Origin: Deltaproteobacteria bacterium
GTDB taxonomy: Bacteria > Myxococcota_C > UBA6777
Direction of reading: 5' to 3'
DNA: 62,574 bases
NCBI GenBank assembly: GCA_002731275.1
Contig: PCBK01000084.1
Location: 1 to 62,574 of the forward strand
The position numbers were made by a program, and so were the translations under genes. Numbering within the stretch: the first letter of the stretch is position 1; the number at the start of each line of letters is the position of its first letter. Below are positions 10,145 through 26,593 of the stretch, one piece after another. The notes below the pieces were generated by a model. The model made no database searches and was not told where the DNA came from. It was given only the letters and a program-made list of their open reading frames with translations.

Positions 10145-13100
10145 TCACTCCGAAGCCTTCTGTATATCAGAACATGTCGAGCGTTCGAGGCACAGGTGGT
10201 CACGTAATTCTTTTCCGTTGGAGCGAAAGTAGACACCGAGCACATTGATCATGTACTGGTGCACATCGAATGACCTTTCGGGGTCTGGGTTACTAAATCC
10301 GTGTGCGCCATTGGTCTTGATGTAAGGCAATCTCATGCCAGCCACACCTGAGTGCGTTGGCACAGTCAGTCTCAATGGCGGCTCAAGTCGAGGCACACCC
10401 AAACCATCACGCCCATTGCTGAGATTGTCAGGATCAAAGAGCACACCCGTTTTGTTGTCGGGACCAAGAAATCGATTGAGCGATTCGATGCCTTCGAGTA
10501 CATGATAGCGGATCAAGACTTGATTGGGCGTCAAAAACGCGCCCGCCTTCTCTGGATGTGGATACCGCTTATCAGCCCGAAGGACAGGGATAATCCCAGC
10601 AGCCCGCGCGATACCAATCCCCGTATCAACAGGAACAACAGCGTCGCCGATCGTCGGAATGACCAAGACATTGGCGCCAGGATTCAAACGCCTTTCATAG
10701 GTGTATGTCATCGGTTGTAAATGGAAATGTTTGGCGTAGGCCACAGGATCACCAGGCGAAACGATCATCCCACCAAATCCGATAAAACGACGAAGCTCTG
10801 GCGTTTGGCGCTTGAGACCAAATCCTTTCGAGAGCGCAAACAAAGGCAAGCCCTTCTTGTAGAGAATCCCCTGAAAGAACACGTCGTGACCAAATGTCTT
10901 GATCGTCTCCCGCACCTCGTCAGTTGTCCCTTTGTAAACGACGATCTCCCACGCGTCACCAGGAAGCACAATCTCCTTCTGTGAACCTCCGACAGGAACG
11001 GCCTGGATCACGTCACTCTTGCCATCGACAGGACGCAGCTCTGGAGGTTGGTAACTGTCCTCAAGTATCTTGGTGTGCACAGAAGGGACACCAAGAATCG
11101 CTCCCTTTTCGAGCGCGTCGAGCGCATCTGAGGCCACTGCGACACGAAAAGAATGTACACTTCCATCCTTGCGCACGATCGCCCAACGTTCTTCTTTGTT
11201 ACGTAGGTTGCGAAGAACGATTTTGTCTCCCACCTTGATCTTGTCCGATGTGTAAAATCGAACCCCAGTCACACGTTGACTGTTATCGATAAACAAACAA
11301 TTCCTCGTGGGGTTGTTTTCCGCAACCTCTGGGGTGAGGCTACACGCTTCATCGGCGACGTCAGCGACGCCAAAACGAAGCTCTGTCGTCCCATCAGCTT
11401 TTCCATACCCCATCACAAAGGGACCAAGCGTCCGCATAAAGACAGCATCCACAACACCCCCCTGACTCGAACGGGCGCCAACCTTTAGCAAACCAGCACC
11501 ACCAGAAACAGGCGCAGCCGCTGCAATCGCAGGCTCTGTTGCTGCCAGGATCGAGGAGAGGAAACCACCGAGCGAGATCCCCCAAGCATGATACTGCTCG
11601 GAAGGTCCACCGAAATCGACAACCCCATCACCGTTAAAGTCACCAGCAATTCCTGTCAGATCAGGTTTTCCATCTCCCGAACCATCCATCGACCACTTCT
11701 TCTTCCCATCCCACGTACGCATGATCCGAATCATCTGCATATGATCAATCACACTCTGTCTCACCACATCGCGGGTGTGGAACATATCAGCGGTCCAGAA
11801 GTCTCCACCTGAATCGGGATATCCGTCGTTGTTCAGATCACGCGCACGTCCAGGCGACAGAGAGCGAAACACCCCAAGTAGACCAGCCTTTCCCAAAATC
11901 GCTTCGAGAGCCTTTGTCTCAGAAGGTGACAGACTCGCGCCATGCCCGACAGCATCAAGTCCACACGAAGCTAGGCCAAATCGCGCGAGGCTCCCGGCGA
12001 AACCGATCATCTCAAATCGCGAAGAGGTATATCCATGTCCATAAAACACAACGGGAAATGGAGGCTTAAAGCGCTCAGTGGCCTTGGGAACCACACACCA
12101 CCAAGGTACGGTGTCTTTGCCAACGATCATCTTCCCAGTGTTCCGGTTGAGGCGAAAAATCGTCTGGTTATCGTGTGTGATGTTGGCGCGCTGTGCAGGT
12201 GTCAACGTCTTGGCATCGACAGGATTGCCATCCTTATCACGTGCGGTCAAAAAGTACGGTGTGACAAAATCGCCTGCGACGATATAATCGACATAATCGA
12301 ACGTCTTGAGCAGCGCCTTTTGTCTCGTCACGCTCCCACCAAGCACGATCTGCGCGACCCCTTGTAAAGTAGCGCGTATCTTCTCACCGGAAACCATCCA
12401 GGGTTTCTCAGCGTCCTCAGCCAATGTATGGATCTTGTTGAGCGTTGCTGGATACATCGTACGCAGCGCTTGAAATGGTCCATGACCGTAAAGTCCATCC
12501 CTGATGTCCTTCATGTCACGTGTTGTCTTGCCGGTGGTAAATGTCCAGGCGAAAGCGACGTCATTCTCTTCGAGACCAAAGGGTTTGAGCAACCCCTCTT
12601 CGAAGAGCGGCAGAAGTGCTTGCGTTTGTCTTGTGTGGTTGATGTATGGGAAGGGTGAACGGATAGGATTTCCAGCCTCCCCCTTCAGCCGTTTGGTCAG
12701 AATAACAGCGTATGTACTCTCTGGTTCGAGCGGAATGACGGGCTGCATAATCAGCGTATTTGTCTCACGCTCGTAGTACGTCATCACATTGTCGACCGTG
12801 GCTTCTTTTTTATCGACAGTGTTGGGTGTATCCCACACCCCATCGTGATCGAGATCTTCGTCGGGATCGAGCTTGCCATTTTTGTTGACATCGACCTCAG
12901 CGCGGGTCTCAAAGAAGAGGTTGCGACTCTCCTTGTGTGGATCGTGGGCAAAGTAATTGTTGGTTCGCTCAAGTGTAACGGGAAAGTTACCTCGCCCCAT
13001 GTCCATCAGCACCGGTTTTCCGTACATAGGTGAGCGCTTATTGAGACACACAACGTAGAGCACGTCATCCTGAAAGTCATCGTTTTGTTGATGTCTTTTG

Positions 13101-13462
13101 ACGATGTCTCCGACATCAAGGGGACGCTTGAAGCGCACTGTGATAGGCATGTACACACCAAACCCTGTGAGCTGATTCACCTCTTTACGCACACCACTCT
13201 CTAGAACAGTCGGCGCGAGCATACTGACATTGACCCTACGTCCAGTGACTGAAGTTGGATCGATGCGTGTCGCGAGATCGTTGGGGAGTGGGATCTCAGG
13301 AAGTGGTTTGGCATCCAGATCGAAGATGATGAGTGGCCCTTTACCGTCTTCGGTTTTGGTAATGCCTTGGGGGATTGAGGGGCTTGGCGCACAGTGGATA
13401 GATGCAAACGCCATGCAGAGAACAAACCCACTCATGATGAGCCAATGAAAACGTTGGAACAT
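10145..13462 (-). CDS. Very large lipoprotein with alpha/beta-hydrolase core and EF-hand-like loops
   Basis: A 1105-residue surface protein. The signal sequence ends at a lipobox-like ASIHC. The first 350 residues are beta-rich and contain a calcium-loop sequence starting DVNKNGKLDPDEDLD. A hydrolase core follows: PFPVVFYGHGYTSSRF, then CGLDAVGHGAS, then the nucleophile elbow HAWGISLGGFL with a Ser. Two more Asp/Asn-rich calcium-like loops (DLNNDGYPDSG, DFNGDGVVDFGG) lie between them. The C-terminal 350 residues are of unknown fold and have NVLVIPTIGDAVVPVDTG, which could hold the acid of the triad. A lipase or esterase is likely; substrate unknown. GAGGAGG precedes the ATG. The gene starts 15 bases after the beta-barrel gene ends, suggesting one transcription unit. 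Confidence 0.85.
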   Translation of the reverse strand: MFQRFHWLIMSGFVLCMAFASIHCAPSPSIPQGITKTEDGKGPLIIFDLDAKPLPEIPLPNDLATRIDPTSVTGRRVNVSMLAPTVLESGVRKEVNQLTGFGVYMPITVRFKRPLDVGDIVKRHQQNDDFQDDVLYVVCLNKRSPMYGKPVLMDMGRGNFPVTLERTNNYFAHDPHKESRNLFFETRAEVDVNKNGKLDPDEDLDHDGVWDTPNTVDKKEATVDNVMTYYERETNTLIMQPVIPLEPESTYAVILTKRLKGEAGNPIRSPFPYINHTRQTQALLPLFEEGLLKPFGLEENDVAFAWTFTTGKTTRDMKDIRDGLYGHGPFQALRTMYPATLNKIHTLAEDAEKPWMVSGEKIRATLQGVAQIVLGGSVTRQKALLKTFDYVDYIVAGDFVTPYFLTARDKDGNPVDAKTLTPAQRANITHDNQTIFRLNRNTGKMIVGKDTVPWWCVVPKATERFKPPFPVVFYGHGYTSSRFEMIGFAGSLARFGLASCGLDAVGHGASLSPSETKALEAILGKAGLLGVFRSLSPGRARDLNNDGYPDSGGDFWTADMFHTRDVVRQSVIDHMQMIRIMRTWDGKKKWSMDGSGDGKPDLTGIAGDFNGDGVVDFGGPSEQYHAWGISLGGFLSSILAATEPAIAAAAPVSGGAGLLKVGARSSQGGVVDAVFMRTLGPFVMGYGKADGTTELRFGVADVADEACSLTPEVAENNPTRNCLFIDNSQRVTGVRFYTSDKIKVGDKIVLRNLRNKEERWAIVRKDGSVHSFRVAVASDALDALEKGAILGVPSVHTKILEDSYQPPELRPVDGKSDVIQAVPVGGSQKEIVLPGDAWEIVVYKGTTDEVRETIKTFGHDVFFQGILYKKGLPLFALSKGFGLKRQTPELRRFIGFGGMIVSPGDPVAYAKHFHLQPMTYTYERRLNPGANVLVIPTIGDAVVPVDTGIGIARAAGIIPVLRADKRYPHPEKAGAFLTPNQVLIRYHVLEGIESLNRFLGPDNKTGVLFDPDNLSNGRDGLGVPRLEPPLRLTVPTHSGVAGMRLPYIKTNGAHGFSNPDPERSFDVHQYMINVLGVYFRSNGKELRDHLCLERSTCSDIQKASE

Positions 13463-13477: not shown

Positions 13478-15055
13478 TCAAAAGTGAAGATAGGTTCGAC
13501 ACTGAAAAACGTCTATCGCGTCAGCATGTCCGTTCACATCGTGCAAGGCATCTCCTGGAAAAAAGCGCCCATAGAGCAACGAGAGGCCAAACGAAACGGA
13601 CTTGAGAATACGATACGAGTAACTCAAGCTCACATTGAGTTCAAAACCCAGTTCGTGTCGTTCGGCTGCGAGTAAATCCATCGGTGTCGTGTTCACACCA
13701 CCATTTCGAAAAGTGTTGAATGGATCGAGGAAGTCGACGACGGACAGCGCGTACAACAAGCCCACCTTCAGCTCAAGTTTGCGCAGGATGTCGTTGCGCG
13801 AGAATGGTCTATAGGCGATCACTGGCTGTATGTATAGAGCATTCTGGACTCGCCCAACAGAGGGCACAAGCTCACTTCCAGGAGGTGCAACGCCAACACG
13901 ACCTGCATCAGCGAGGCGATCATACCCCCTCGCTGAGATCGCCCCCAAAAGCCGCTTGAACAGAATCAATGACGGCTGATAATTGGGGTCAAACCGGAAA
14001 GAACGGCTATATGTGTCATCTAGATTGTTGTCACCTGACGCATATCCAACCTCAAAACCAAAGCGCAGCCCAACCTTGGAGAGCGTCACCCCACCACGCC
14101 CCACAGCCCCCACTGACGATAAAATCGTGCTCGTGCGCGCGTTCTCGTTGAGGAGCTGATCGGTCTTCCCTTGTAAGATTGCGATTTCACCGGCAACGTT
14201 CAGGATCGTCCCGTTGTCATCAAAGCGATGCCGGAGCTTTGCGTGCACATCGAACATCTGCGCCTCGATGTGTGTCCCGTTACGCGTTTGTTGATCACGG
14301 ACGGCGACGTATATCCCCAGAAAGACGTCTTCTTTATCCTTGTAAAAGAAGGAAAATGCCCCCTGCAACGCGAAGTCGTTTTGCAAAAGATCAGCGGTCT
14401 CATCTCTGTACACAACGTCGAACGCCGCTGCCAGGATAAACCTACGCGCGATCGGATGACGACGAATCAAACCGATGATTGGTAGCGCCCAACTCGCGCG
14501 CAGGACAAGATCGCCAAAGCGAGGCATCCCAAACTCACCTGTCGCGCGCTGTCCGCTGTTCGCGATAATGCCCAATCCCCAATCACTCGTCTGCTGACCG
14601 ATTCGGAGCAGGCCGACAGGAGAACGCCAAGAGACATAGAGCTGCCGAAAGTCAGCCCAACGAACACCTGAGACCTGTGGCAATATCGGAGAGAAGTAAC
14701 TGTCCCTTGCCACCCCTAGCACCTTCTCGAAACCATACGGAGAATCCACCATCGCAAAGTCCGCTTGGGCAACAAAGCGAACACGACGACCTAAACGAAG
14801 AGAAGGTGTCAAACGAAAGCGGTGGTACAACCCTCCTGTCCCCTGCTCCCCCATTCGCTCGCCTGTGTCATCAAGCAAGAAGTCCGAAAGGTACATGTAG
14901 TGGAAGACATCATCTCCTTTGATATCCAACACCATATACCGGTCCGACGAAAGTTCAATCTCAACAGCTCCCGCAGCCGCCACAAAACCAATCCACACGA
15001 TCGACGCGACCAACACGGAAAGCAGAACAGAAAAGCGACGCTCGCTTTGTTGCAT
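13478..15055 (-). CDS. Outer-membrane beta-barrel protein
   Basis: A 525-residue protein with a signal peptide ending near AAAGAVE and alternating hydrophobic/polar strands throughout, rich in Tyr, Arg and Gly. It ends in an aromatic residue (LHF), as expected for a protein inserted by the Bam machinery. Likely a porin-like or adhesion barrel; I recognise no specific family. The ATG at 15055 has GGGAG six bases upstream, better than upstream in-frame starts. It lies directly upstream of the large hydrolase lipoprotein, so the barrel may serve its surface display or its product uptake (inference). Confidence 0.75.
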   Translation of the reverse strand: MQQSERRFSVLLSVLVASIVWIGFVAAAGAVEIELSSDRYMVLDIKGDDVFHYMYLSDFLLDDTGERMGEQGTGGLYHRFRLTPSLRLGRRVRFVAQADFAMVDSPYGFEKVLGVARDSYFSPILPQVSGVRWADFRQLYVSWRSPVGLLRIGQQTSDWGLGIIANSGQRATGEFGMPRFGDLVLRASWALPIIGLIRRHPIARRFILAAAFDVVYRDETADLLQNDFALQGAFSFFYKDKEDVFLGIYVAVRDQQTRNGTHIEAQMFDVHAKLRHRFDDNGTILNVAGEIAILQGKTDQLLNENARTSTILSSVGAVGRGGVTLSKVGLRFGFEVGYASGDNNLDDTYSRSFRFDPNYQPSLILFKRLLGAISARGYDRLADAGRVGVAPPGSELVPSVGRVQNALYIQPVIAYRPFSRNDILRKLELKVGLLYALSVVDFLDPFNTFRNGGVNTTPMDLLAAERHELGFELNVSLSYSYRILKSVSFGLSLLYGRFFPGDALHDVNGHADAIDVFQCRTYLHF

Positions 15056-15174
15056 CAACATCTCCCAGCGAAAAAGGGACATCTTTTCAAGACAGTCTGA
15101 GAAGACCTGAGTGGGCCAAAAAACCATTCAGGATCATACAACAGACCGCACAAAAGTGAAAGCTGGTGTCGACG

Positions 15175-18100
15175 TCAATCGACTTTGTCTTTGTCTTGTT
15201 TGGTTCGCTCGGCAGAGCGTTTAAAGGAGGGAGGTGAGGTCGCGTGTGTTTGGATCAATGTGGGGTGATCATCGATCAGCGTAAAGCGCACCTGTAAGGT
15301 CTCCTCGGTACGTCCATGGGCAGACATCGAGGCGAGCAACATCCGACTCAGGGGACGAGCAACATTTCGCTCAATGGCACGCAACAGAGGACGCGCACCC
15401 AAGGTCGGATCGACAGAAGCCTCGACGAGTTTCCACAAAGCATCTTCATCGCCACTCAACATAACATTCTGTTGAATGGCTCGCTCTGCGAGCTCTTCAA
15501 AGTGTTTTTGTGCGATCAAGAGGAGCACTTCAGGTGGTAGAGGTTGGAACAAGAGCACTTCATCGATCCGGTTCATAAACTCAGGGCGAAAGTAGCGCTT
15601 GAGTTCATTGGAGATCTCAGCATCTTTGATCTCGATTTTGTCGTCTCTTTGGAAACCAACAGACTTTCTCACCTCAAAGCGATCCGCGAGGATATTCGAG
15701 GTCATAATAAAGACCGCATGGCGCCCATCAATCGTCCGACCAAGTGAATCTGTCAGACGCCCTTCTTCAAAAAGTTGTAGGAAGAGGTCGAGCACTTCGG
15801 GGTGGGCTTTTTCGACTTCATCGAGCAGGACAACGCTGTAAGGGCGATGATGAAGTTGCGCGAGGATCTGGCTCTCTTCACCGTGTCCGACGTAGCCCGG
15901 AGGTGCACCAACAAGTTTGGAGGTGCTATGTTTTTCCGAGAACTCAGACATATCGAGACGTATCAACGCAGACTCTTGCCCAAACAGCTCTCTCGCGAGG
16001 GTACGACAGAGCTCGGTCTTCCCAACACCACTTGGTCCGATAAACAACAACACGGCAGTGGGACTACCTTCGCGTTTGAGACCGGCGCGGCCAATCTGCA
16101 CAGCTTGGCTGATCGAAGAGACGGCTTCATCCTGCCCAAGGACAGACTTCTTCAGACGTTCTGAAAGTTCCAGTAAACGCTTGCTCTCTTCACGAGAGAT
16201 TTCACCGATAGGGATACCCGTCCAGTCTGCGAGGACTTTGTAGATCACACTCTCATTGACCACAGGTTTTCCGGTGCTCGCGAGGATCTTTCCTTCCGGC
16301 GTGAGCACCGGCATACTCGCGCCACGAAGCGTCACGAGTGCACAGGCTTCGTCGATCAGATCAAGCGCCTTGTCCGGCAATCGTCGATCGGGGAGATAGC
16401 GCACAGCGAGGTCAACAGCGGCGAGTAGGACTTCGTCAGGGATGGTTACAGAGTGGTGTTCTTCATAGCCAATTCGAGAGCCACGCATAATCTCAAAGCT
16501 CTCTTCGGGAGAGGGTTCTTCGAGGAACAGAGGATGGAAGCGACGCGCAAGCGCAGCATCTTTCTCGATGTACTTTCTGTACTCAACAGGTGTTGTCGCG
16601 CCAATGCAACGAATCTCTCCACGCGCCAACGCAGGTTTCAAGATATTCGCGGCGTCGAGTGTTCCTTGGTGTGTCTCTCCTGCCCCCACCACAGTATGGA
16701 ATTCATCGAGAAAGAGAATCACTTCGGGATGTTCGCGCGCTTCTCTGATCACCATCGTGAGACGCTCTTCGAAATCACCACGATAACGAGTTCCAGCGAC
16801 GAGACTGGAGAGAGAAAGCTCGACAAGACGTCGTCCTCGAAGCTCTTCGGGGACAGCCCCTGCGACAATACGCTGCGCGACACCTTCGACCAAGGCAGTC
16901 TTACCGACACCAGCCTCACCGATGATCAAGGGGTTGTTTTTGAAGCGACGCAGCAGGATCTGTGCGAGCCTCATCAACTCTTCGGAGCGACCTGTTAGGT
17001 GAGGTAATGCATCTTGCTCTGCGAGGAGCGTTAGATCTCGGCCATATCGATCGATGGTAGGCGTCTCGCCACCTGTACGAGTGCGGACCTGTGGGATCTC
17101 ACCTCGCAACAATTTTTCGTACAATTTTTTGGGATCAGCGCCCATCTTTTTGAGCACTTCAAACGCGAGTCCTTCGCCACTTTGTAGGATTGCAGCGAGC
17201 AGGTGTTTTTCGCGCACGACGTGATCATTTTCGTCTCGTGCGTTTTGCTCTGCAGATTTAAGGGCACGCGCACAGCGTTGTGTTGGGAGGATTTTTGCAT
17301 CGAGCGAAGCGTGTCCAAAACCGAGCGCGTAGCGGATCGTATCGCGCACCTTCTTTGGCTCAAAGCCTGCGACCTCCAACAACGCTCGGGTCACACCACC
17401 AGGGCACTTGGTCAAACCGATAAACAGGTGTGGTGTCCCGATGAAATCCTGACGCAGGTTCTTCGCCTCCATCAACGCGATACCAATCGCCTGTTCGAGA
17501 TCGAAGTCGTACTCCAGTGAGCTTTCACCTGTAATCGATGGATCAACAGAGGCACCGTCTCGATGGGGTGAGGATGGTGGCAACGCCTGATTCTCCCCAG
17601 TGGGCATTCTCGCGGTCTCGCCTCTGTTCCCCGTATCGATGGAACGCAGTTGACTCTCGGACTGTGCTTTTGTCCGCTTGAACAGTGGGATATCAGGCTC
17701 ACCGAAGAAGACAAAGGAGATCCAGCTAGGGTCTGAGGGATTACGACGGATGAATCGCTGACGTGCAGAGCGCAAGGCTTCAGCAGGAGGGAGCCCTTCG
17801 AATAAGGCGCGGTAGTAGTCGCCGACCATCTGTCGCCCTCCTGGCGTAAAGCTAGGAGAGAGCGAAAGCACAACACCATGAGCCCCTTTGTCGAGCAACG
17901 TCGTGGCAAAGGACAAGGCCGCAGAAGAGGGATGGATATCCGTCTCTTCTGTCTGCTGGAGGTGGAAAAATACCCAAAGAGGGCCAGGAAACAAAGAACG
18001 CAAAGTGTGAGGAGCGATGGAGGTGTCGGTGAGAGAAATACGAGGACCTTCGGACTGTTCAGCGACAGTCCTTGAAGCGATGTGTAAGAGGCTAGGCCCC

Positions 18101-18675
18101 TCATCCGCGATGCGCTCAAGACCTTCAAAGGTTGCCTGATCACCGAGCAAGACATCTTGAGACATCGTGGTGGGAAGGCTATCGATCAAGAACCCAACTT
18201 CTCGCTCTGAGGCTGGCAAGTCACCAAGAGGATCAGCGACAACAGCGACCTTCAGGCGTTCAATCGTCGTCCCTGTTTGTTTGGGATTTTCCCGCGAAGG
18301 AGGCTCAAACCAGCTAGGTAAACGACCGATCGGAAAGCGTACACCGATGAACTCCTCTCCGTCGTGCAAGATCTCCCACGGAAACAAAGGCTCACCACCA
18401 AAAAGCGTCAAAGGACGCGTGTTTTGGCGAATCAGTGGGTGGAGGTCTTCAGGGATGAGCAGCTTGTACAGCGCGCGTCCAATTTGCTCAAGCGTGGGCT
18501 CTTCGTCAGGCAAGCCTTTAAGCTTGTATAGCTGCTCAACGAGCGCATTCCGCTCGCTCTCGCCTCTATCCCCCAATTCACGTCGAAACTCCATAGGAGC
18601 CTGACGAGGCCGTGCGTACCAACGATACCGCAACAGCGTGCCTTTTTTTACCAGTTGAAGTCGTGGTGCTTGCAT
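15175..18675 (-). CDS. CHAT-like domain fused to ClpA/ClpC-type AAA+ unfoldase
   Basis: A 1166-residue cytoplasmic protein with two parts. Residues of about 1-330 match a CHAT (caspase-like) domain: PWEILHDGEEFIG near 98, LLHIASRT near 195, KGAHGVVLSLSP and DYYRALFEGLPPAEALRSAR. The expected catalytic His (HG) reads RT and the expected Cys position has none, so the protease site looks lost. After a Ser/Pro linker come a Clp N-domain (about 385-515), AAA module 1 with GEAGVGKT at 586 and VILFLDEF, and AAA module 2 with GPSGVGKT near 879 and VVLLDEVEKAHPEV. The middle domain is almost absent, as in ClpA. SVGFQ near residue 1005 sits where ClpC has its ClpP-binding loop. It should unfold proteins, perhaps for ClpP, with the CHAT-like part as sensor or adaptor (inference). 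No adaptor or protease gene is adjacent. The Shine-Dalgarno is weak. Confidence 0.9.
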   Translation of the reverse strand: MQAPRLQLVKKGTLLRYRWYARPRQAPMEFRRELGDRGESERNALVEQLYKLKGLPDEEPTLEQIGRALYKLLIPEDLHPLIRQNTRPLTLFGGEPLFPWEILHDGEEFIGVRFPIGRLPSWFEPPSRENPKQTGTTIERLKVAVVADPLGDLPASEREVGFLIDSLPTTMSQDVLLGDQATFEGLERIADEGPSLLHIASRTVAEQSEGPRISLTDTSIAPHTLRSLFPGPLWVFFHLQQTEETDIHPSSAALSFATTLLDKGAHGVVLSLSPSFTPGGRQMVGDYYRALFEGLPPAEALRSARQRFIRRNPSDPSWISFVFFGEPDIPLFKRTKAQSESQLRSIDTGNRGETARMPTGENQALPPSSPHRDGASVDPSITGESSLEYDFDLEQAIGIALMEAKNLRQDFIGTPHLFIGLTKCPGGVTRALLEVAGFEPKKVRDTIRYALGFGHASLDAKILPTQRCARALKSAEQNARDENDHVVREKHLLAAILQSGEGLAFEVLKKMGADPKKLYEKLLRGEIPQVRTRTGGETPTIDRYGRDLTLLAEQDALPHLTGRSEELMRLAQILLRRFKNNPLIIGEAGVGKTALVEGVAQRIVAGAVPEELRGRRLVELSLSSLVAGTRYRGDFEERLTMVIREAREHPEVILFLDEFHTVVGAGETHQGTLDAANILKPALARGEIRCIGATTPVEYRKYIEKDAALARRFHPLFLEEPSPEESFEIMRGSRIGYEEHHSVTIPDEVLLAAVDLAVRYLPDRRLPDKALDLIDEACALVTLRGASMPVLTPEGKILASTGKPVVNESVIYKVLADWTGIPIGEISREESKRLLELSERLKKSVLGQDEAVSSISQAVQIGRAGLKREGSPTAVLLFIGPSGVGKTELCRTLARELFGQESALIRLDMSEFSEKHSTSKLVGAPPGYVGHGEESQILAQLHHRPYSVVLLDEVEKAHPEVLDLFLQLFEEGRLTDSLGRTIDGRHAVFIMTSNILADRFEVRKSVGFQRDDKIEIKDAEISNELKRYFRPEFMNRIDEVLLFQPLPPEVLLLIAQKHFEELAERAIQQNVMLSGDEDALWKLVEASVDPTLGARPLLRAIERNVARPLSRMLLASMSAHGRTEETLQVRFTLIDDHPTLIQTHATSPPSFKRSAERTKQDKDKVD

Positions 18676-19128
18676 ATTTTACCGCTTCTTTCAAACAACC
18701 TTCGCAAAATGCAATGGTTTCGTACCAAATCATCATAGTCAACACTACATTGAAAGTAAAGTAGAGAAAAAGTCCTTTTCACAACATTTGCTTATCTCCG
18801 CGCTCCAATTATCCAGCAACATCTCGAAAAAGTCTTAGCCTTCTCGTCAGAAAATCTTCTACAAGGCAATCTTTTTCGCAACCCAAAGGTGACACCGCGA
18901 AGTTTCGTTCGCACCTTCCCTGTCACAGTAAGTCATCCCTCCTCACCACAAGAAAAAACCAAAAACATCTACACATCATACAGATAAAAAGACAAATAGC
19001 TGTCACATAGATGACACCATTTCGTCACAAAATGCCCCTGGCACAAAATATGCAAATCAAGGGAGAAGACAAAAGAGATATTTCGTGGAAACACTCCACA
19101 AACCCATAGAATAAGATTGAGGAAGCTC
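18676..19128. other. Divergent intergenic region with regulatory sites
   Basis: A 453-bp AT-rich gap between the divergent CHAT-Clp and lipid-kinase genes. It holds a near-consensus sigma-54 promoter at 19039-19054. Upstream of that are repeated TGTCA/TGACA elements at 18890, 18921, 19001 and 19012, two of which form TGTCA-N6-TGACA at 19001-19016. These could bind an enhancer-binding activator. I see no gene in it and could not assign a promoter for the CHAT-Clp gene. Confidence 0.55.
19039..19054 (+). promoter_or_regulatory. Probable sigma-54 promoter
   Basis: TGGCAC-AAAAT-ATGCA matches the RpoN consensus TGGCAC-N5-TTGCA at all but one base, with exactly ten bases between the -24 GG and the -12 GC. 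Transcription would begin near 19065, about 60 bases before the lipid-kinase start. Confidence 0.6.
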
Positions 19129-20226
19129 ATGTCAGGTCACACAAACACATACCATTCAGCCAAGCGTATCGCCATTCTCCTGAATGGAAACGCGCGCAAG
19201 GTGACACAAGCCCTCGTCGATCAACTCTCCTATACAGTCCCCCGAAAAGACATCTACTTCTCGAAAACACTTGAAGAAGCCAAGCGCTTCTGTCAATTGA
19301 TTTACGAACGCGAGTACGACCTCGTCTTTACAGGCGGTGGCGACGGTACACTTTTAAACGGTGTCACAGAGCTGCAACGCTGCCATGAACAAGCCGTGAC
19401 CAAACGTCGTTTCCCTGTGCTCGGTGTCCTTCACCTCGGGACAGGTAACGCTGTTGCCGGTTTTCTTGGCGCACGTGCAAACATCACCAAGACGATCCAA
19501 CAAGCACAAAAAACACAAGGTTTCGCGCTACGTGAACAGCACTGGGTCGAAGTCAACGGTGAGTCAACGCCCTTCGCAGGCACAGGCCTCGATAGCTTGA
19601 TGATCAACCACTACAAAAAACTCAAAGATCAGCTCAAGGACGGACCATTCGCCTTTTTAGGAGAGGGACTGAGAGGCTATCTCAGCGCGTTGTTTGTCTA
19701 CACAACCCCCCACTTCTTTACCCAACCTTTCCCCGAGATCGAGGTCTTCAACGGCAACAAGCCAGCTTATCTCCTCGGCCCAAAAGGTGATTATGTCGAA
19801 GAATTTGCGCCAGGTGCACGCCTCTACAAAGGCCCGGCAATGATGAGCTCTGTCTCGACAGTTCCGTGTTTTGGATATGGCGTCAAGGGATTTCCCTTCG
19901 CCGAGTCTGGACAACACATGCAACTGCGACTCGCATTTCCCCCGGTCCTTGAAGCGCTCATCAACATCCCCCGTATCTGTCGCGGTACATACAGAAGCAA
20001 AAAACTGCTCGATTTTCACGTCGAAGAGGTGACTGTAAGAAGCGATGAGCTGCTCCCCCTCCAAATTGGCGGCGACCCAAAAGGATACCACCACGAAGTC
20101 ACGTACAAGTTGTCTGAAAAGGCCACCTGGCTCGCAGACTTCAGAGCAGCACAACAACTCCCAGCGCGACAACCAACCAAAAGCCTCCCCCCAGCCAACA
20201 CTACGGATATCATCTCACACATCTAA
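19129..20226 (+). CDS. Diacylglycerol-kinase-family lipid kinase
   Basis: A 365-residue enzyme of the DAGK catalytic family, which transfers phosphate from ATP to diacylglycerol or a similar lipid. IAILLNGNARK opens the nucleotide fold, LVFTGGGDGTLLNGV is the signature GGGDGT motif and HLGTGNAVAG is the family's second glycine motif. The C-terminal half forms the expected beta-sandwich with PLQIGGDPKG near the end. The ATG at 19129 has GAGGAAG four bases upstream; an in-frame TTG lies at 19117. The sigma-54-type promoter upstream suggests control by an enhancer-binding activator. Exact lipid substrate unknown. It ends 60 bases from the converging NAD kinase gene. Confidence 0.88.
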   Translation: MSGHTNTYHSAKRIAILLNGNARKVTQALVDQLSYTVPRKDIYFSKTLEEAKRFCQLIYEREYDLVFTGGGDGTLLNGVTELQRCHEQAVTKRRFPVLGVLHLGTGNAVAGFLGARANITKTIQQAQKTQGFALREQHWVEVNGESTPFAGTGLDSLMINHYKKLKDQLKDGPFAFLGEGLRGYLSALFVYTTPHFFTQPFPEIEVFNGNKPAYLLGPKGDYVEEFAPGARLYKGPAMMSSVSTVPCFGYGVKGFPFAESGQHMQLRLAFPPVLEALINIPRICRGTYRSKKLLDFHVEEVTVRSDELLPLQIGGDPKGYHHEVTYKLSEKATWLADFRAAQQLPARQPTKSLPPANTTDIISHI

Positions 20227-20286: not shown

Positions 20287-21231
20287 TTAACGATCGAGCG
20301 CCCGATGATGTCGTTGGCGACGAGTACGTTCAATATCCCCGTACAACATGAGATGTTGACTTGAAGGTTGAAAGACCAACTTGTCGTTGTAAAGCACATC
20401 AAATCGGTTCCAAGGGCCATCGATAAACATCGTCGACTTCCTCATCTTTGAGACAATCTCAAGCTTTTGTCCTCCCGCAACGAAGCCTCCATCAAAATGA
20501 AACGGTACAATCCCCGGAGGGGCATACAGTTCACGCACTAGATATTGCAATCTCCTGGATTGCAGAGGCATAATCTTTCCCCCCGCCGAGTGAATCGCCG
20601 CGGTCGAGCCTGTCGCCGTCGAGACCCACACTCCACTTGAACGCTGCTCCTCGTAGGACGCGAGCACATCCTGCCCATCGTACAACATCCCAATATCGTA
20701 CCTCGTCGTCGCTGCAGGGACGTCATGTGCGTACAAAATATCATTGAGCGCGTAGGGAAGGATAAGCTCTCCATTACATCGGGCTTCAATACGTGTCAGT
20801 CTGTATGTAGGAAGCTCTTCTTTCACAAAACGATCGAAGATCTCCTCGAAATCCTCCGCCTCCCCTGCACACAAATAACCCACACTCGAAATACGCGATG
20901 AGTGAATCCCCAGCAGCGGCGTACTATCCGAGATCGCACGTGCCGCCTCCAGCAAAGTCCCATCACCCCCCAAAGAGATCACCAAGTCGAACGAGCCGAG
21001 CTTCTCCATATCAGGACGATGCTCCCACACAGCATCCACACCACGCCGCTCCAACACGTGACGAACGTGCTCAATAGACGCTTCGTTCTCCTCGTGTCCT
21101 TTCATCATCCTCGTAACAGACGGCTCATTCTGCGCAAGCAGCTCCTGCATATGGCTGTCGTTTTCCTCTTGGACGTACATAAACGTACTTCTCTTGTACA
21201 CAACCAAAACAGAACGTATTTCTCGTGACAT
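20287..21231 (-). CDS. nadK: NAD kinase
   Basis: A 314-residue NAD(+)/NADH kinase that makes NADP. The ATP-binding loop is VISLGGDGTLLEAAR. LLGIHSSRISSVGYL takes the place of the usual LLGIN-G-LGFL, and ALNDILYAH holds the NE/D-type motif. WVSTATGSTAAIHSAGG matches the conserved STPTGSTAY region. The protein has a longer insert (VYKRSTFMYVQEENDSHMQE) near the N-terminus than typical enzymes. Length fits the family. The Shine-Dalgarno is weak. Confidence 0.88.
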   Translation of the reverse strand: MSREIRSVLVVYKRSTFMYVQEENDSHMQELLAQNEPSVTRMMKGHEENEASIEHVRHVLERRGVDAVWEHRPDMEKLGSFDLVISLGGDGTLLEAARAISDSTPLLGIHSSRISSVGYLCAGEAEDFEEIFDRFVKEELPTYRLTRIEARCNGELILPYALNDILYAHDVPAATTRYDIGMLYDGQDVLASYEEQRSSGVWVSTATGSTAAIHSAGGKIMPLQSRRLQYLVRELYAPPGIVPFHFDGGFVAGGQKLEIVSKMRKSTMFIDGPWNRFDVLYNDKLVFQPSSQHLMLYGDIERTRRQRHHRALDR

Positions 21232-21510
21232 ACATATCCCGACAGCAAAAAGGTGAAGAGTCGTTCAGAGAACGTTGATCGTACGACTTCGCATTCGATT
21301 TGCAAGCCATTTTTTGAACAGCACACGATCGCAAAAAGCCACAACTGACAGCACGACCTTGTCCACAGCTTGTTTTCCACCATTTCCCAGACATCTCCCC
21401 TCCCTCCAAGCGACCCCACACCCAACATCCTCCAAGCCACATCAGGGAGAAAGCACTTTTGTACGTTCAGGTTGGTGACTGCCCCCTTTCCTTTTGTGCG
21501 AGCCTATACC

Positions 21511-21516
21511 TATAAT
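21511..21516 (+). promoter_or_regulatory. Possible -10 element before the kinase/phosphatase gene run
   Basis: A perfect TATAAT occurs at 21511-21516 with a poor -35 (TTCCTT) 17 bases upstream. If used, transcription would start near 21523, after the ATG at 21515, and translation would then begin at the in-frame ATG at 21587, which has AAAGG ten bases upstream. The rest of the gap (21232-21510) shows nothing I can name. Confidence 0.3.
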
Positions 21517-24500
21517 GATCAGCAAGAGAGCATGGCAGCCCGCAGCCACACGCCCGCAACTCGCAAGTATCGAAAGGTTGAACCTGATGGCAGAACTATC
21601 GGCAAATCGTCCATGGATCTATCCCCAAAAGTGGCCGGGTTGGTCAGATCACATTCGCGTAGGAGGCGGCCTCTTCGATGACGCCTCGACACTCCTCGAC
21701 GTGTTACAGCACTGTTGGCACCATTACACCACTCACACCTCCGCACAGCTCTCACCGCAAGCTGCGCTCTCCATCGCGCTGCGCGAAGACATTTGGCCCC
21801 ACTGGCATCAACACCTCGATTATCTCAAAAAACACTTTCAACCCAAGATCAACAACGAACGCCTGACCTTCACTTTTCAATTGTACAAAGCAGATGATGC
21901 AGTCCTACAACTTGATGATCCAAGGGGTTTCGCCTTTGTCTTACAACACCCCCTCAGGCAGGAGCTCAAATGCTGTTTTTACCTCGGACAAGAGCGCATC
22001 GGCTCTGTCTCGCTTGGTGAGATCAACTTACGAGGGGATCGATGCAAGCTCGCCGTCCACCGACGCTTTGGCATGACGCGCAGCTCAACCATCCAAAAGT
22101 GTTACAAAAACAGCCCACTGCACCCCATGATCCCCAAAAAGATGCTCGAAGATCTCCGATACCTCGGGTGGACCTTTCACTTTAGCCAACCCAAAGGACA
22201 ACCACAGCTCACGTTCAAAGATGTACACAATGTCGGATATCTCGAAGGAGGAGAGTTCCTCCTCAGCGAACATATCACACTCCCACTCGGCGAACCTCTC
22301 GACTTTTACCAGGGAGAACGAGACGGCTTACCAGATGATGAGTTACGTTGTCGTATGCTGATCATCCCAGAGGATGCGACACCAGAAGCCCCCATTCTGC
22401 AAGACCTGGAGCTGTTTCTTCACGAAGCCCCTGATCAACCCACATTGCTCGAAGTGAAAGCCTGGGTTCATGGTGTCGCGTTACAAGATGATCAATTCTC
22501 CCTCGTACTGGAAGACACCCCCCACACCATTCAATGCCGCCAAGGACAAACACTTTCTCCACATCTCCATCTCTTCCACACAATCCTGGAAGGGGTCGAA
22601 GATCTCCGTCCAAACCAAACGCTCCGATGTATTCCCGAGGGCGAAAACAAGTATGGACTCCCCTTCGCTGAGCACGATATCCGCACACACACCCTTCGAC
22701 AGGCTGTCAATCCGCAATTTTTGGGACCAACACTGCTCCAAAAGAGCCAGCTCGAACGTGCATGGGAGCTTCGCATCGCGTTACAGGGCGAAGCTCCATA
22801 CCCGGAGTTCGCGCTCAACGACTTCACCCTCTGGTTACAAGCCGATCAACATCCACCTGTCCAAATTCCTCTCGCGAGTGTGACACAAAACACCCTCCTC
22901 TTTCGCTTTTTACCTCGCTCCGTCCACATGCAACTACCTCTTGAAACACTCCAAAACTGCGAGTATCTCTCCCTCTCCCTCGAACAACACCGGGACGACG
23001 AGACGCCCTTTCCGTCGAACACATGGCTCATCAGTGGCCGTACACAGCGTCCACACACACCACTCGCACGTCTCAAGCTGATCGACTTTGACCATGTCAG
23101 TCGCATCCTCCCTACAGAACAAACGGTGATCTTTCCCAGCCACGAAGAGATCGTCGTCGAGGGACACCGCATTCAACTGCACAGAGCGGAAGACACTGCG
23201 CTCCCGACAACATCCCCCGACGGACAGGTCCTGCTCTTGGAACCCAAAGGAGGACGTAGGCGAATCCAGCTCGTCTACCGCTACCCAGGCTGGATGCACG
23301 CCTCCTCTCGACACAACACAGCACATTCTCAACGCTCCCGTGACATCCGCGCGTTATGGCTAAGCTGCTCCACACAAGACCAATGGATCGATAGCCCCAA
23401 AGAGAGGAATCCCGAAGGCGGTCCCATCCTCGCGTTTGGGCTTGGTGTCGGACAGACACAAGAGATGGCCCAAATTCGTCCGACAGCCGAAGGTTTTCGA
23501 CTTTACCGACATAGACAGCACATTCAGGTGATCGCCGATGGTGTCTCGCTTCCCTGTGAGGCACATGATCGGGCACGTGGACACCTCCTCTCCCCCGAAC
23601 AAAAGCGGGGCTGGCTGCTGATCGATCACATCCTCCTGCGTTACGAATACGGGATTGATTTTCAGCTCGATCTCACGATGTACGGACTCTTGCTCCCCAA
23701 CGATAGCCAACACAAGAACGTCGTTTTCACAACAGGGCAGGACGCACCTCTTCCTCCAAATCCACACCTTCCACACATCCATATCTCCGATGAAGGACGA
23801 CCTTGTCAGCTTATTGTGAGCGGCCTCACCAAGCCCCCCAAGGAGCTTCTTCCGCGCCTTCTGCTACAAGAAAACCGCATGGACAGCCCCCTCCCAGAAG
23901 AGCTCGCACTTGGAAAAACGCTCAAAAGAGGACCACTTCATCTCACAGTCTGGGAGGCACAATTTCGCGAAGCCTTCCCAGACAGCCTCCCACAAGGCCA
24001 TACATTGCTCCTGGAGCTCAACAAAAAGTACGCCAGAAAACGTTACTTTCTATCGACGATGTCGGGTCAACTCGGACACTGGAGCAAGGGCTCTGCCTTC
24101 CTCCCATCCAACGGTCCACTCCGTCCGATGTTTGCCCCTCAACATCCCAGAACATACCAAGGGAAGGACATACCAGCCGGCGAATTGGTCGTCGGTACGC
24201 AGTTAACCCAATCAGACCTGCTCGTTCCCGACTTCTTCAAGCTCTCATCTCCACAACTCTTTAGCCTCGCGGCCAGAGAGAATACATTACAGCTCAGACC
24301 ACTCACCGAAGACATCGCGCTTGTGCATCTTCACCCTCACCAAGATGGTCGCATTCAATTCGCAGAAGAGCCTATCAAAACACCAAGGTTGTTGTCTTTC
24401 TCAACCTCCAAAAGGCTCCATGTTCGCATCGGTCATCTGCTCTTCGAGTTGAGCGCACATCAGGATGATTGTGACGAATTGCACCAAACGGACTACCTGT

Positions 24501-26593
24501 TGTCGATTCGAGGCACCCTCCACCCAGCGAACACGGCCTTTGTGATCGGTGGACCTCCCCACCATACACCTCTTCCGCTCCTCGACGCGATCCCTCAACA
24601 GTCTCCAGAAGAACCGCTGTTTACGGTCTATTCTCCGGATCTTCAGCTACGTTACAAGGGTGACGGGGTTGTCGGCCTCCAACGTCCCAAAACACTCTCC
24701 TCACTGCTCGATCAGCTCCGCAATGAGCTCTCCATGTCCAACACTCCTCAACTCACGACGACGCCGCTTGACACTCTCTACGCTCTCCACCCAGAACATC
24801 AATCAACCGATCAGCACGTCACCATGCCCCCCACACTCGAAGAGATGGGTGTCACACTTCACGAACACATCCTCACAAGCGCCTCACAGCTTCACTTTGA
24901 CAAACACACCGCCCAATACAAACAACGCCCCGTCGACGCAACGTCCCCAACCTACACAGAGTGTCCAGCCCGACTTGTCCTGTCACCTCCTCCCACAATC
25001 ACGATCGAGCTGAGCAAAGAAGCTGATGGATTTCTTCACCCAAATGGTGAACTTATCGAGCAACTCTTTTTTGGTCGGTGGGATCCAGAGAGGCCTGAAG
25101 AGCAGCTCGATGAAGACGCATACATCGGAGTCAGCGAACCATTTACAGAGCAGGATATCCAGTCCGCGAAGCTCTCTTTTCACGGCTATTCACCAAGACG
25201 GGCTGCTTCGATCACGCGTTTTCAAAATAAGCTCATGTTGGAGATCCCAGCCCCTCGCACACCAGGAGGATATCACATCGTCCTCGAAGGTGAGCCATGT
25301 TTTGAAGCCCGAACGGTCCTCATCGACCGCCCCCTACGTCTTCACATGAACCACCTGATCGAGTGTATCATCCAACCAGAAGACACACGCTTGCACTTCG
25401 TCTTGCAAGGTTTCTTGCTCGCTCACCAGCAATCTTCCATGCTCCCTGTGACGTTGACGCGCTCAAACCGATTGGGACACATTCATCTGCGTGGATTGCA
25501 GCCAACACAGTCGCTCCAACTGACCCCCACGCAGCTTCCGCCTCATATCGCGCAGCTCACAACCTCAACACGTCGACTCGGTCCCTTCGAGGTCGCTCCA
25601 CACGAACATGCAGTCCTCGTCGATCCTACATCTATGGCGATGTATCAACCTCCAGCAACGGATCGCCTGTTGTGGTTCACCCAAACAGAAGCACACACAC
25701 CTTTCACCTGGACACCAGAGACAGAACCAGCGGAAAGTCTCCCCGATCTATCTCAAGATGAAGGGAGTTCTTTTGGCTTCTTCACCTCTTCAACCCCACC
25801 ACCATCTTCAATGACATCGCCAGCCGACGAAGGCAGCTCCTTCGCATTTGGTCCCACAAACAACATGACACAAGAGATCCTCTCCGAGGACATTGTCTCC
25901 TCCAAGCCTTTGACAACCCCACCTCGTCCTTCACAGACATCGACGTTTGCTTCCAGTGGTACAGAAGAGTTGGCATCTCCTCTCCACGAAGATCCCCACA
26001 GCGACACCCCAACCATGGAAGGTATGACGCCTCCACACAGCCTCCCAACGGGCCAGACTGAAGAGTTGGCGACGACCTCACAAGCGCTCTTACAAGTCGG
26101 ATTCTTCTCTCCCACACAAGGAGACGAAGTGTCCGAGCATATGTTCGGATACGTCAGCGATGAAGATGGTGTGCAATTGCATATCAAGCAGACACTAGAA
26201 GGTTATCTCGCCCGCCCCGCTTCCTACAACGCAGAACCAGATTTGTCGACGCAACCAGCGCTCCTTCGACAAGGTCAATTCTATTGGTTGGGTGGTGAAC
26301 AGCGACTTCAACATGACGACATCCTCCTTTGTGGTCAGGCGGCTTTCCAGGTCGTCTTGTCCGAGAATCGACTGAAGCTGTTAAGAAAGTGGCTCTGGCT
26401 CCCGACACAACGGATTGTGCATTGGTCTCCAACAGAGCTAGCCGGGGGTTGTCGGCTCTTTCCACTTCATACAGAGCACACAGAGGCGTATCTGCTTTTC
26501 CCCTCTCAACCAGGTCATACCATAACAGAGGTGCAAGGCTCATGTCCGGGCATTACGATCGACCAAAGTACTGAAGAGGAGTCAGAGGAATGA
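21515..26593 (+). CDS. Giant beta-rich protein with FHA-like segments, first gene of kinase/phosphatase triad
   Basis: About 1692 residues, no signal peptide, no recognisable enzyme motif. The sequence is a long series of beta-strand-rich blocks. Some resemble FHA or immunoglobulin-like folds, for example GELVVGTQLTQSDLLVPDF and GQFYWLGGEQRLQHDDILL, but without the conserved FHA Ser/His/Asn residues. Residues of about 1415-1540 are a Ser/Thr/Pro-rich linker with repeated GSSFGFF / GSSFAFG and GTEEL / QTEEL motifs. The stop overlaps the kinase-like gene start by ATGA, so the two are translationally coupled. A scaffold or substrate of the downstream kinase and phosphatase is the simplest guess. 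The start is uncertain: the ATG at 21587 is a good alternative. Confidence 0.75.
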   Translation: MISKRAWQPAATRPQLASIERLNLMAELSANRPWIYPQKWPGWSDHIRVGGGLFDDASTLLDVLQHCWHHYTTHTSAQLSPQAALSIALREDIWPHWHQHLDYLKKHFQPKINNERLTFTFQLYKADDAVLQLDDPRGFAFVLQHPLRQELKCCFYLGQERIGSVSLGEINLRGDRCKLAVHRRFGMTRSSTIQKCYKNSPLHPMIPKKMLEDLRYLGWTFHFSQPKGQPQLTFKDVHNVGYLEGGEFLLSEHITLPLGEPLDFYQGERDGLPDDELRCRMLIIPEDATPEAPILQDLELFLHEAPDQPTLLEVKAWVHGVALQDDQFSLVLEDTPHTIQCRQGQTLSPHLHLFHTILEGVEDLRPNQTLRCIPEGENKYGLPFAEHDIRTHTLRQAVNPQFLGPTLLQKSQLERAWELRIALQGEAPYPEFALNDFTLWLQADQHPPVQIPLASVTQNTLLFRFLPRSVHMQLPLETLQNCEYLSLSLEQHRDDETPFPSNTWLISGRTQRPHTPLARLKLIDFDHVSRILPTEQTVIFPSHEEIVVEGHRIQLHRAEDTALPTTSPDGQVLLLEPKGGRRRIQLVYRYPGWMHASSRHNTAHSQRSRDIRALWLSCSTQDQWIDSPKERNPEGGPILAFGLGVGQTQEMAQIRPTAEGFRLYRHRQHIQVIADGVSLPCEAHDRARGHLLSPEQKRGWLLIDHILLRYEYGIDFQLDLTMYGLLLPNDSQHKNVVFTTGQDAPLPPNPHLPHIHISDEGRPCQLIVSGLTKPPKELLPRLLLQENRMDSPLPEELALGKTLKRGPLHLTVWEAQFREAFPDSLPQGHTLLLELNKKYARKRYFLSTMSGQLGHWSKGSAFLPSNGPLRPMFAPQHPRTYQGKDIPAGELVVGTQLTQSDLLVPDFFKLSSPQLFSLAARENTLQLRPLTEDIALVHLHPHQDGRIQFAEEPIKTPRLLSFSTSKRLHVRIGHLLFELSAHQDDCDELHQTDYLLSIRGTLHPANTAFVIGGPPHHTPLPLLDAIPQQSPEEPLFTVYSPDLQLRYKGDGVVGLQRPKTLSSLLDQLRNELSMSNTPQLTTTPLDTLYALHPEHQSTDQHVTMPPTLEEMGVTLHEHILTSASQLHFDKHTAQYKQRPVDATSPTYTECPARLVLSPPPTITIELSKEADGFLHPNGELIEQLFFGRWDPERPEEQLDEDAYIGVSEPFTEQDIQSAKLSFHGYSPRRAASITRFQNKLMLEIPAPRTPGGYHIVLEGEPCFEARTVLIDRPLRLHMNHLIECIIQPEDTRLHFVLQGFLLAHQQSSMLPVTLTRSNRLGHIHLRGLQPTQSLQLTPTQLPPHIAQLTTSTRRLGPFEVAPHEHAVLVDPTSMAMYQPPATDRLLWFTQTEAHTPFTWTPETEPAESLPDLSQDEGSSFGFFTSSTPPPSSMTSPADEGSSFAFGPTNNMTQEILSEDIVSSKPLTTPPRPSQTSTFASSGTEELASPLHEDPHSDTPTMEGMTPPHSLPTGQTEELATTSQALLQVGFFSPTQGDEVSEHMFGYVSDEDGVQLHIKQTLEGYLARPASYNAEPDLSTQPALLRQGQFYWLGGEQRLQHDDILLCGQAAFQVVLSENRLKLLRKWLWLPTQRIVHWSPTELAGGCRLFPLHTEHTEAYLLFPSQPGHTITEVQGSCPGITIDQSTEEESEE

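Follow-up and report, generated by a model that had tools for sequence, protein, structure and literature searches.

A gene located on the minus strand of a 62,574-nucleotide contig (PCBK01000084.1, assembly GCA_002731275.1; this whole stretch is referred to as the window) of a Deltaproteobacteria bacterium encodes, in a single intact frame of 1,166 amino acids (aa) starting with ATG, a CHAT domain joined to a Clp-type unfoldase. This fusion is the only ClpC-like protein in the sampled genomes of its phylum, and it is a ClpC-like protein without an M-domain, in which the residues of the resting state and of phospho-arginine binding have been replaced and the N-domain is unusually conserved. 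The explanation that we favour, at a probability of roughly 0.55, is that the protein acts as a ClpP-coupled core unfoldase, in which a catalytically dead CHAT domain serves as a built-in adaptor or regulator replacing canonical ClpC control.

The Clp engine and its missing ClpC control elements

The phylum sample consisted of five genomes of one GTDB phylum, these being the window genome and four metagenome-assembled genomes deposited as Myxococcota, Myxococcales or Deltaproteobacteria. The fusion was found as a single-copy gene in each of the five, one copy being cut by a contig end, with an overall identity among orthologues of 66-67%. Because the same fusion is present in four other genomes, it does not represent a frameshift or an assembly artefact. 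Pfam assigns the Clp part to Clp_N (twice), AAA, AAA_lid_9, AAA_2 and ClpB_D2-small, and the arrangement of a CHAT-like N-terminus, Clp N and two AAA modules in one protein, as described in a first-pass annotation of the window, was thus confirmed by both Pfam and the orthologues. When compared with profiles built in the current work, the fusions score 798-836 bits against ClpC, as opposed to 715-734 bits against ClpB and 618-632 bits against ClpA, and ClpC is also the best match of the Clp part in the Protein Data Bank (PDB). The earlier designation as a ClpA/ClpC-type unfoldase therefore holds with respect to the best-scoring family, but has to be qualified by the absence of the M-domain.

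Walker A and B motifs, arginine fingers and pore loops are intact in the fusion. The VGF triplet previously noted at the position of the ClpP loop was retrieved as VGF or LGF in all four complete fusions, this [VL]GF motif being absent from the ClpB paralogues. Each genome furthermore encodes two clear ClpPs, together with ClpS, ClpA-like and ClpB-like proteins, and ClpP is the predicted partner of the fusion.

In ClpC, the resting assembly is locked by contacts of the M-domain and the N-domain, and adaptors and phospho-arginine clients open this lock at those same sites (PMC12583610). Within the compared region, the fusion has approximately 31 aa where ClpC references have 70-77 aa, the M-domain thus being missing, and the N-domain and control positions of the fusions carry the replacements T7D, R9D, E32P, K85A, E106K/R and D356I/F/H. 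Among 26 ClpC references, E32, K85 and E106 are invariant, T7 is nearly so, position 9 holds R or K, and D or E predominates at position 356. The residues E32 and E106 belong to the phospho-arginine pockets of ClpC, and in Staphylococcus aureus ClpC the substitutions T7D, R9A, K85A and D356A result in activity without the MecA adaptor, T7D, K85A and D356A being the strong activating ones (PMC12583610). Considering the missing M-domain together with the replaced residues, the usual ClpC lock is very unlikely to work in the fusion, and the resting state appears to have been lost. ClpA is likewise devoid of several of these control residues, however, and the fusion may in this respect simply be ClpA-like.

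The N-domain of the fusion is also unusually conserved. Comparison between genera gives 84-90% identity for Clp_N of the fusion, against 40-54% for the N domains of ClpA-like and ClpB-like pairs from these genomes (68% in the closest pair); for D1, the corresponding values are 85-88% in the fusion versus 64-84% in the ClpA-like and ClpB-like pairs. Such a near-fixed Clp_N implies a fixed partner. The CHAT domain is 48-51% identical between genera and the linker 18-32%, and a rapidly changing CHAT and linker placed on a near-fixed Clp_N/D1 is what one would expect if a recognition module were mounted on an engine that stays constant.

Two further types of Clp-like protein were encountered in the course of this comparison. 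One is an odd Clp-like ATPase of 1202 aa (L163, 1222-4830 of G000:C94); its N-terminal region is unrelated, it has a long extension at the C-terminus, and it matches frames of similar length in G002 and G004. The other is a paralogue clade represented by G000:C160 (L073), G003:C64 (L080) and G001:C724 (L087), which has no M-domain, possesses a GF loop and sits on a long branch that is not clearly ClpA, ClpB or ClpC.

The CHAT domain and its active-site positions

The N-terminal part of the window protein matches CHAT (PF12770) at aa 65-325 with an E value of 2.5e-17 and 63.7 bits, the Pfam cut-off being 24; the domain expected at residues 80-320 is accordingly recovered by profile, although it runs from 65 to 325 and is preceded by a 64-aa extension. 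Structure prediction of this region (predicted local distance difference test 73.6; predicted template modelling score, pTM, 0.68) likewise recovered a CHAT/caspase fold, with SAVED-CHAT (8tl0) as the best structural match (Z 17.9, 175 residues, 2.6 A), followed by DdvA (Z 16.1), separase (approximately 15), and Csx29 and caspases (approximately 13). The structural alignments with separase, DdvA and Csx29 include the N-terminal extension, beginning at its first residue. A sequence search of the PDB with the CHAT part of the fusion gave no match.

The active-site columns were set by seven CHAT proteins which keep the GH and NxC motifs (L015, L116, L117, L126, L127, L129 and L130). At the column of the GH-motif histidine, all five orthologues contain Arg (R202 in the window protein); at the cysteine column, Q240 is present in the window protein and G, E or H in the other orthologues, and aa 1-330 of the window protein contain no cysteine. 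The first-pass description of an N-terminus without catalytic His/Cys was therefore correct, and the CHAT domain of the fusion is, as judged from its sequence, catalytically dead. With a ratio of nonsynonymous to synonymous substitution rates of approximately 0.03 for the CHAT region in the closest pair (G002/G004), the domain is maintained by selection rather than decaying, its best-conserved segments being aa 88-125, 266-284 and 312-328.

In each of the five genomes the fusion is the sole CHAT gene (the window genome being 10.75 Mb in size). A CHAT profile search covering 386 genomes returned matches in 26 genomes outside the phylum, and the fusion was not seen among the 381 other genomes sampled; none of 17 distant CHAT proteins examined at full length (16 from the profile search and one from a pattern scan) is fused to Clp. 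The Clp part, searched against the same genomes, yielded outside the phylum, among the matches listed, only ordinary ClpC-sized frames; the single frame of 1022 aa corresponds to an ordinary ClpC of 813 aa. When 84,980 genome species were scanned by pattern, an approach that very divergent fusions would escape, only four phylum members and one distant cyclase-CHAT were retrieved, and the viral contigs and plasmids searched contained no relatives of the fusion. No report of a CHAT fused to Clp was found in the literature covered, from which most subscription journals are excluded. Outside the phylum, the closest relatives by sequence are, from a reading of these proteins, mostly CHATs joined to class III cyclase domains, with His and Cys kept, and the earlier generalisation that CHATs are tied to TPRs or gasdermins does not apply to this subgroup.

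Possible roles of the fused CHAT domain

According to the favoured explanation, the single-copy, ClpC-derived AAA+ unfoldase would form an ATP-driven ring that feeds proteins to ClpP, and the dead CHAT would constitute a flexibly tethered module that binds proteins or ligands and either brings selected clients to the ring or sets the timing of its activity. The CHAT would thereby take over from the M-domain and from the docking sites of the N-domain, which in ClpC provide restraint and the entry of MecA or phospho-arginine clients. We infer this adaptor or regulator role from the features described above: an adaptor to ClpP degradation, as envisaged in the first-pass annotation, fits the dead CHAT, the intact ATPase, the ClpP loop and the two ClpPs, whereas the infection-sensing part of that proposal is not supported. 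A more far-reaching version, in which the M-domain lock and N-domain docking of ClpC have been dismantled, the ClpP-coupled unfoldase is instead gated or loaded by a fused caspase-fold domain that is dead, and CHAT has found a core, non-defence use, is put forward tentatively.

Three results weigh against the favoured explanation. Full-length AlphaFold prediction for five sequences reached a pTM of 0.26, such that no contacts between CHAT and Clp can be read from it. In the tree, the fusions form one clade on a long stem, without a firm position between ClpC and ClpB, and some ClpC features may therefore never have existed in the fusion. Finally, conservation of the active-site loops is not higher than that of the rest of the CHAT (0.34 versus 0.38, p 0.64), so that there is no sign of the old groove being a binding site. 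On the same grounds, the idea of a dead protease holding peptides clamped in the former groove is disfavoured.

A less likely alternative is an autoinhibitory brake, in which the dead CHAT folds back onto Clp_N/D1 and keeps the unfoldase inactive as long as no partner or ligand is bound, thereby replacing the M-domain resting state. Every tested N-domain lock residue is replaced and the M-domain is missing, and the extreme conservation of Clp_N would fit a fixed internal docking surface; ClpC mutants of this kind escape regulation, and cells suffer toxicity when the M-domain lock is released (PMC12583610), which makes some other control of the fusion plausible. However, the level of CHAT conservation is unlike that of a partner of a near-fixed surface, ClpA functions without such a lock, and the full-length model lends the brake no structural support. 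Less probable again is a scaffold or localisation tag, by which the CHAT merely anchors or clusters the unfoldase and has no part in client choice or timing: the flexible and variable linker and the unremarkable conservation of the dead loops would agree with this, but the CHAT is under strong purifying selection and its three conserved segments suggest specific contacts.

An infection-sensing or cell-killing switch belonging to a conflict system, a role that the first-pass annotation had also raised, appears improbable. Conflict systems often contain CHAT domains and inactive caspase domains, yet the fusion is a core gene with conserved neighbours, none of the flanking genes tested is a known conflict-system part, and PADLOC returned for the locus generic AAA matches only and no specific anti-phage family; together with the finding of no relatives on the viral contigs and plasmids searched, these results leave both infection sensing and a protein-killing switch unsupported. 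That the CHAT is still a protease through other residues is scarcely credible, since invariant H198 and H238 do lie near the former active site but the His and Cys columns are lost in five orthologues and cysteine is absent from aa 1-330 of the window protein.

When compared with known systems, the fusion resembles ClpC of Bacillus subtilis and S. aureus and mycobacterial ClpC1 in its double Clp_N, two AAA rings and ClpP loop, and differs from these by the lack of the M-domain, by the replacement of T7, R9, E32, K85, E106 and D356, and by the extra N-terminal CHAT. It shares the CHAT/caspase fold with cyclase-linked CHATs, TPR-CHAT (Csx29), SAVED-CHAT and separase, although its aligned CHAT sequence relatives keep His and Cys and are not joined to Clp. 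ClpK and ClpG profiles match the shared Clp part of the fusion. These disaggregases also carry an extra domain before Clp_N, but this domain is short and not a CHAT, and ClpK/ClpG act as stand-alone disaggregases. Published examples from conflict systems include dead caspase domains tied to AAA+ systems and a Clp-like AAA+ protein bearing a Death-like domain (PMC7159879, PMC8195603). The latter, like the fusion, places a signalling or adaptor domain on a Clp-type ATPase, but the domain is another one and is reported from one organism within a conflict network, whereas the fusion is a phylum core gene. The MoxR-vWA conflict systems (PMC7159879) similarly tie a dead caspase-fold domain to an AAA+ machine; in these systems MoxR is the ATPase and vWA proteins carry the domain, whereas in the fusion it is placed on the unfoldase itself.

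How Clp proteases are held back so that they do not destroy the cell is still an active question, and this restraint is a drug target, cyclic peptides lethal to mycobacteria acting by unlocking ClpC1 (PMC12583610). The fusion would represent a natural ClpC-like protein without the lock, its changes being the same as, or similar to, mutations that activate ClpC in the laboratory, and its dead protease domain lies at the protein end that also holds the replaced N-domain lock. It could show whether the ClpC lock is replaceable and what dead CHATs do, the dead CHAT here being retained as a core cell part and not as a weapon. If the more far-reaching version given above is true, a new type of Clp protease control would be represented, in which protein degradation is steered or gated by a fused domain.

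Gene coordinates and neighbourhood

Table 1. Features of the fusion gene, with positions in the window.
Feature	Position	Strand	Basis
CHAT-ClpC fusion gene	15175..18675	(-)	ORF call and orthologues in 4 further genomes
N-terminal extension, aa 1-64	18484..18675	(-)	predicted strands and one helix; same fold unit as CHAT
CHAT domain, aa 65-325, predicted catalytically dead	17701..18483	(-)	Pfam, alignment, fold match
R202 codon at catalytic His position	18070..18072	(-)	orthologue alignment
Q240 codon at catalytic Cys position	17956..17958	(-)	orthologue alignment
Fast-evolving linker of ~60 aa, aa 329-386, rich in Ser, Pro, Gly, Thr, Ala	17518..17691	(-)	
Double Clp_N domain, aa 387-535	17071..17517	(-)	Pfam (Clp_N twice)
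AAA D1, aa 536-790	16306..17070	(-)	Pfam and motif check
Short link where ClpC has the M-domain, aa 791-810	16246..16305	(-)	
AAA D2 and small domain, aa 811-1122, motifs intact	15310..16245	(-)	Pfam and motif check
VGF at ClpP-docking loop, aa 1006-1008	15652..15660	(-)	

Just downstream of the fusion, the genes at 10145-13462 and 13478-15127 (-) encode VolA/Pla-1-like lipase-related and TIGR04551-like proteins, an order not seen in G002 and found again in G003. A 1699-aa protein encoded at 21494-26593 (+), which had no Pfam match at E 0.001, is kept beside the fusion in three relatives at 34-36% identity. Also near the fusion are a lipid-kinase-like gene (DAGK_cat; 19117-20226, +), conserved in two relatives, and a NAD-kinase-like gene (20287-21231, -), conserved in all four, these two genes being convergent.
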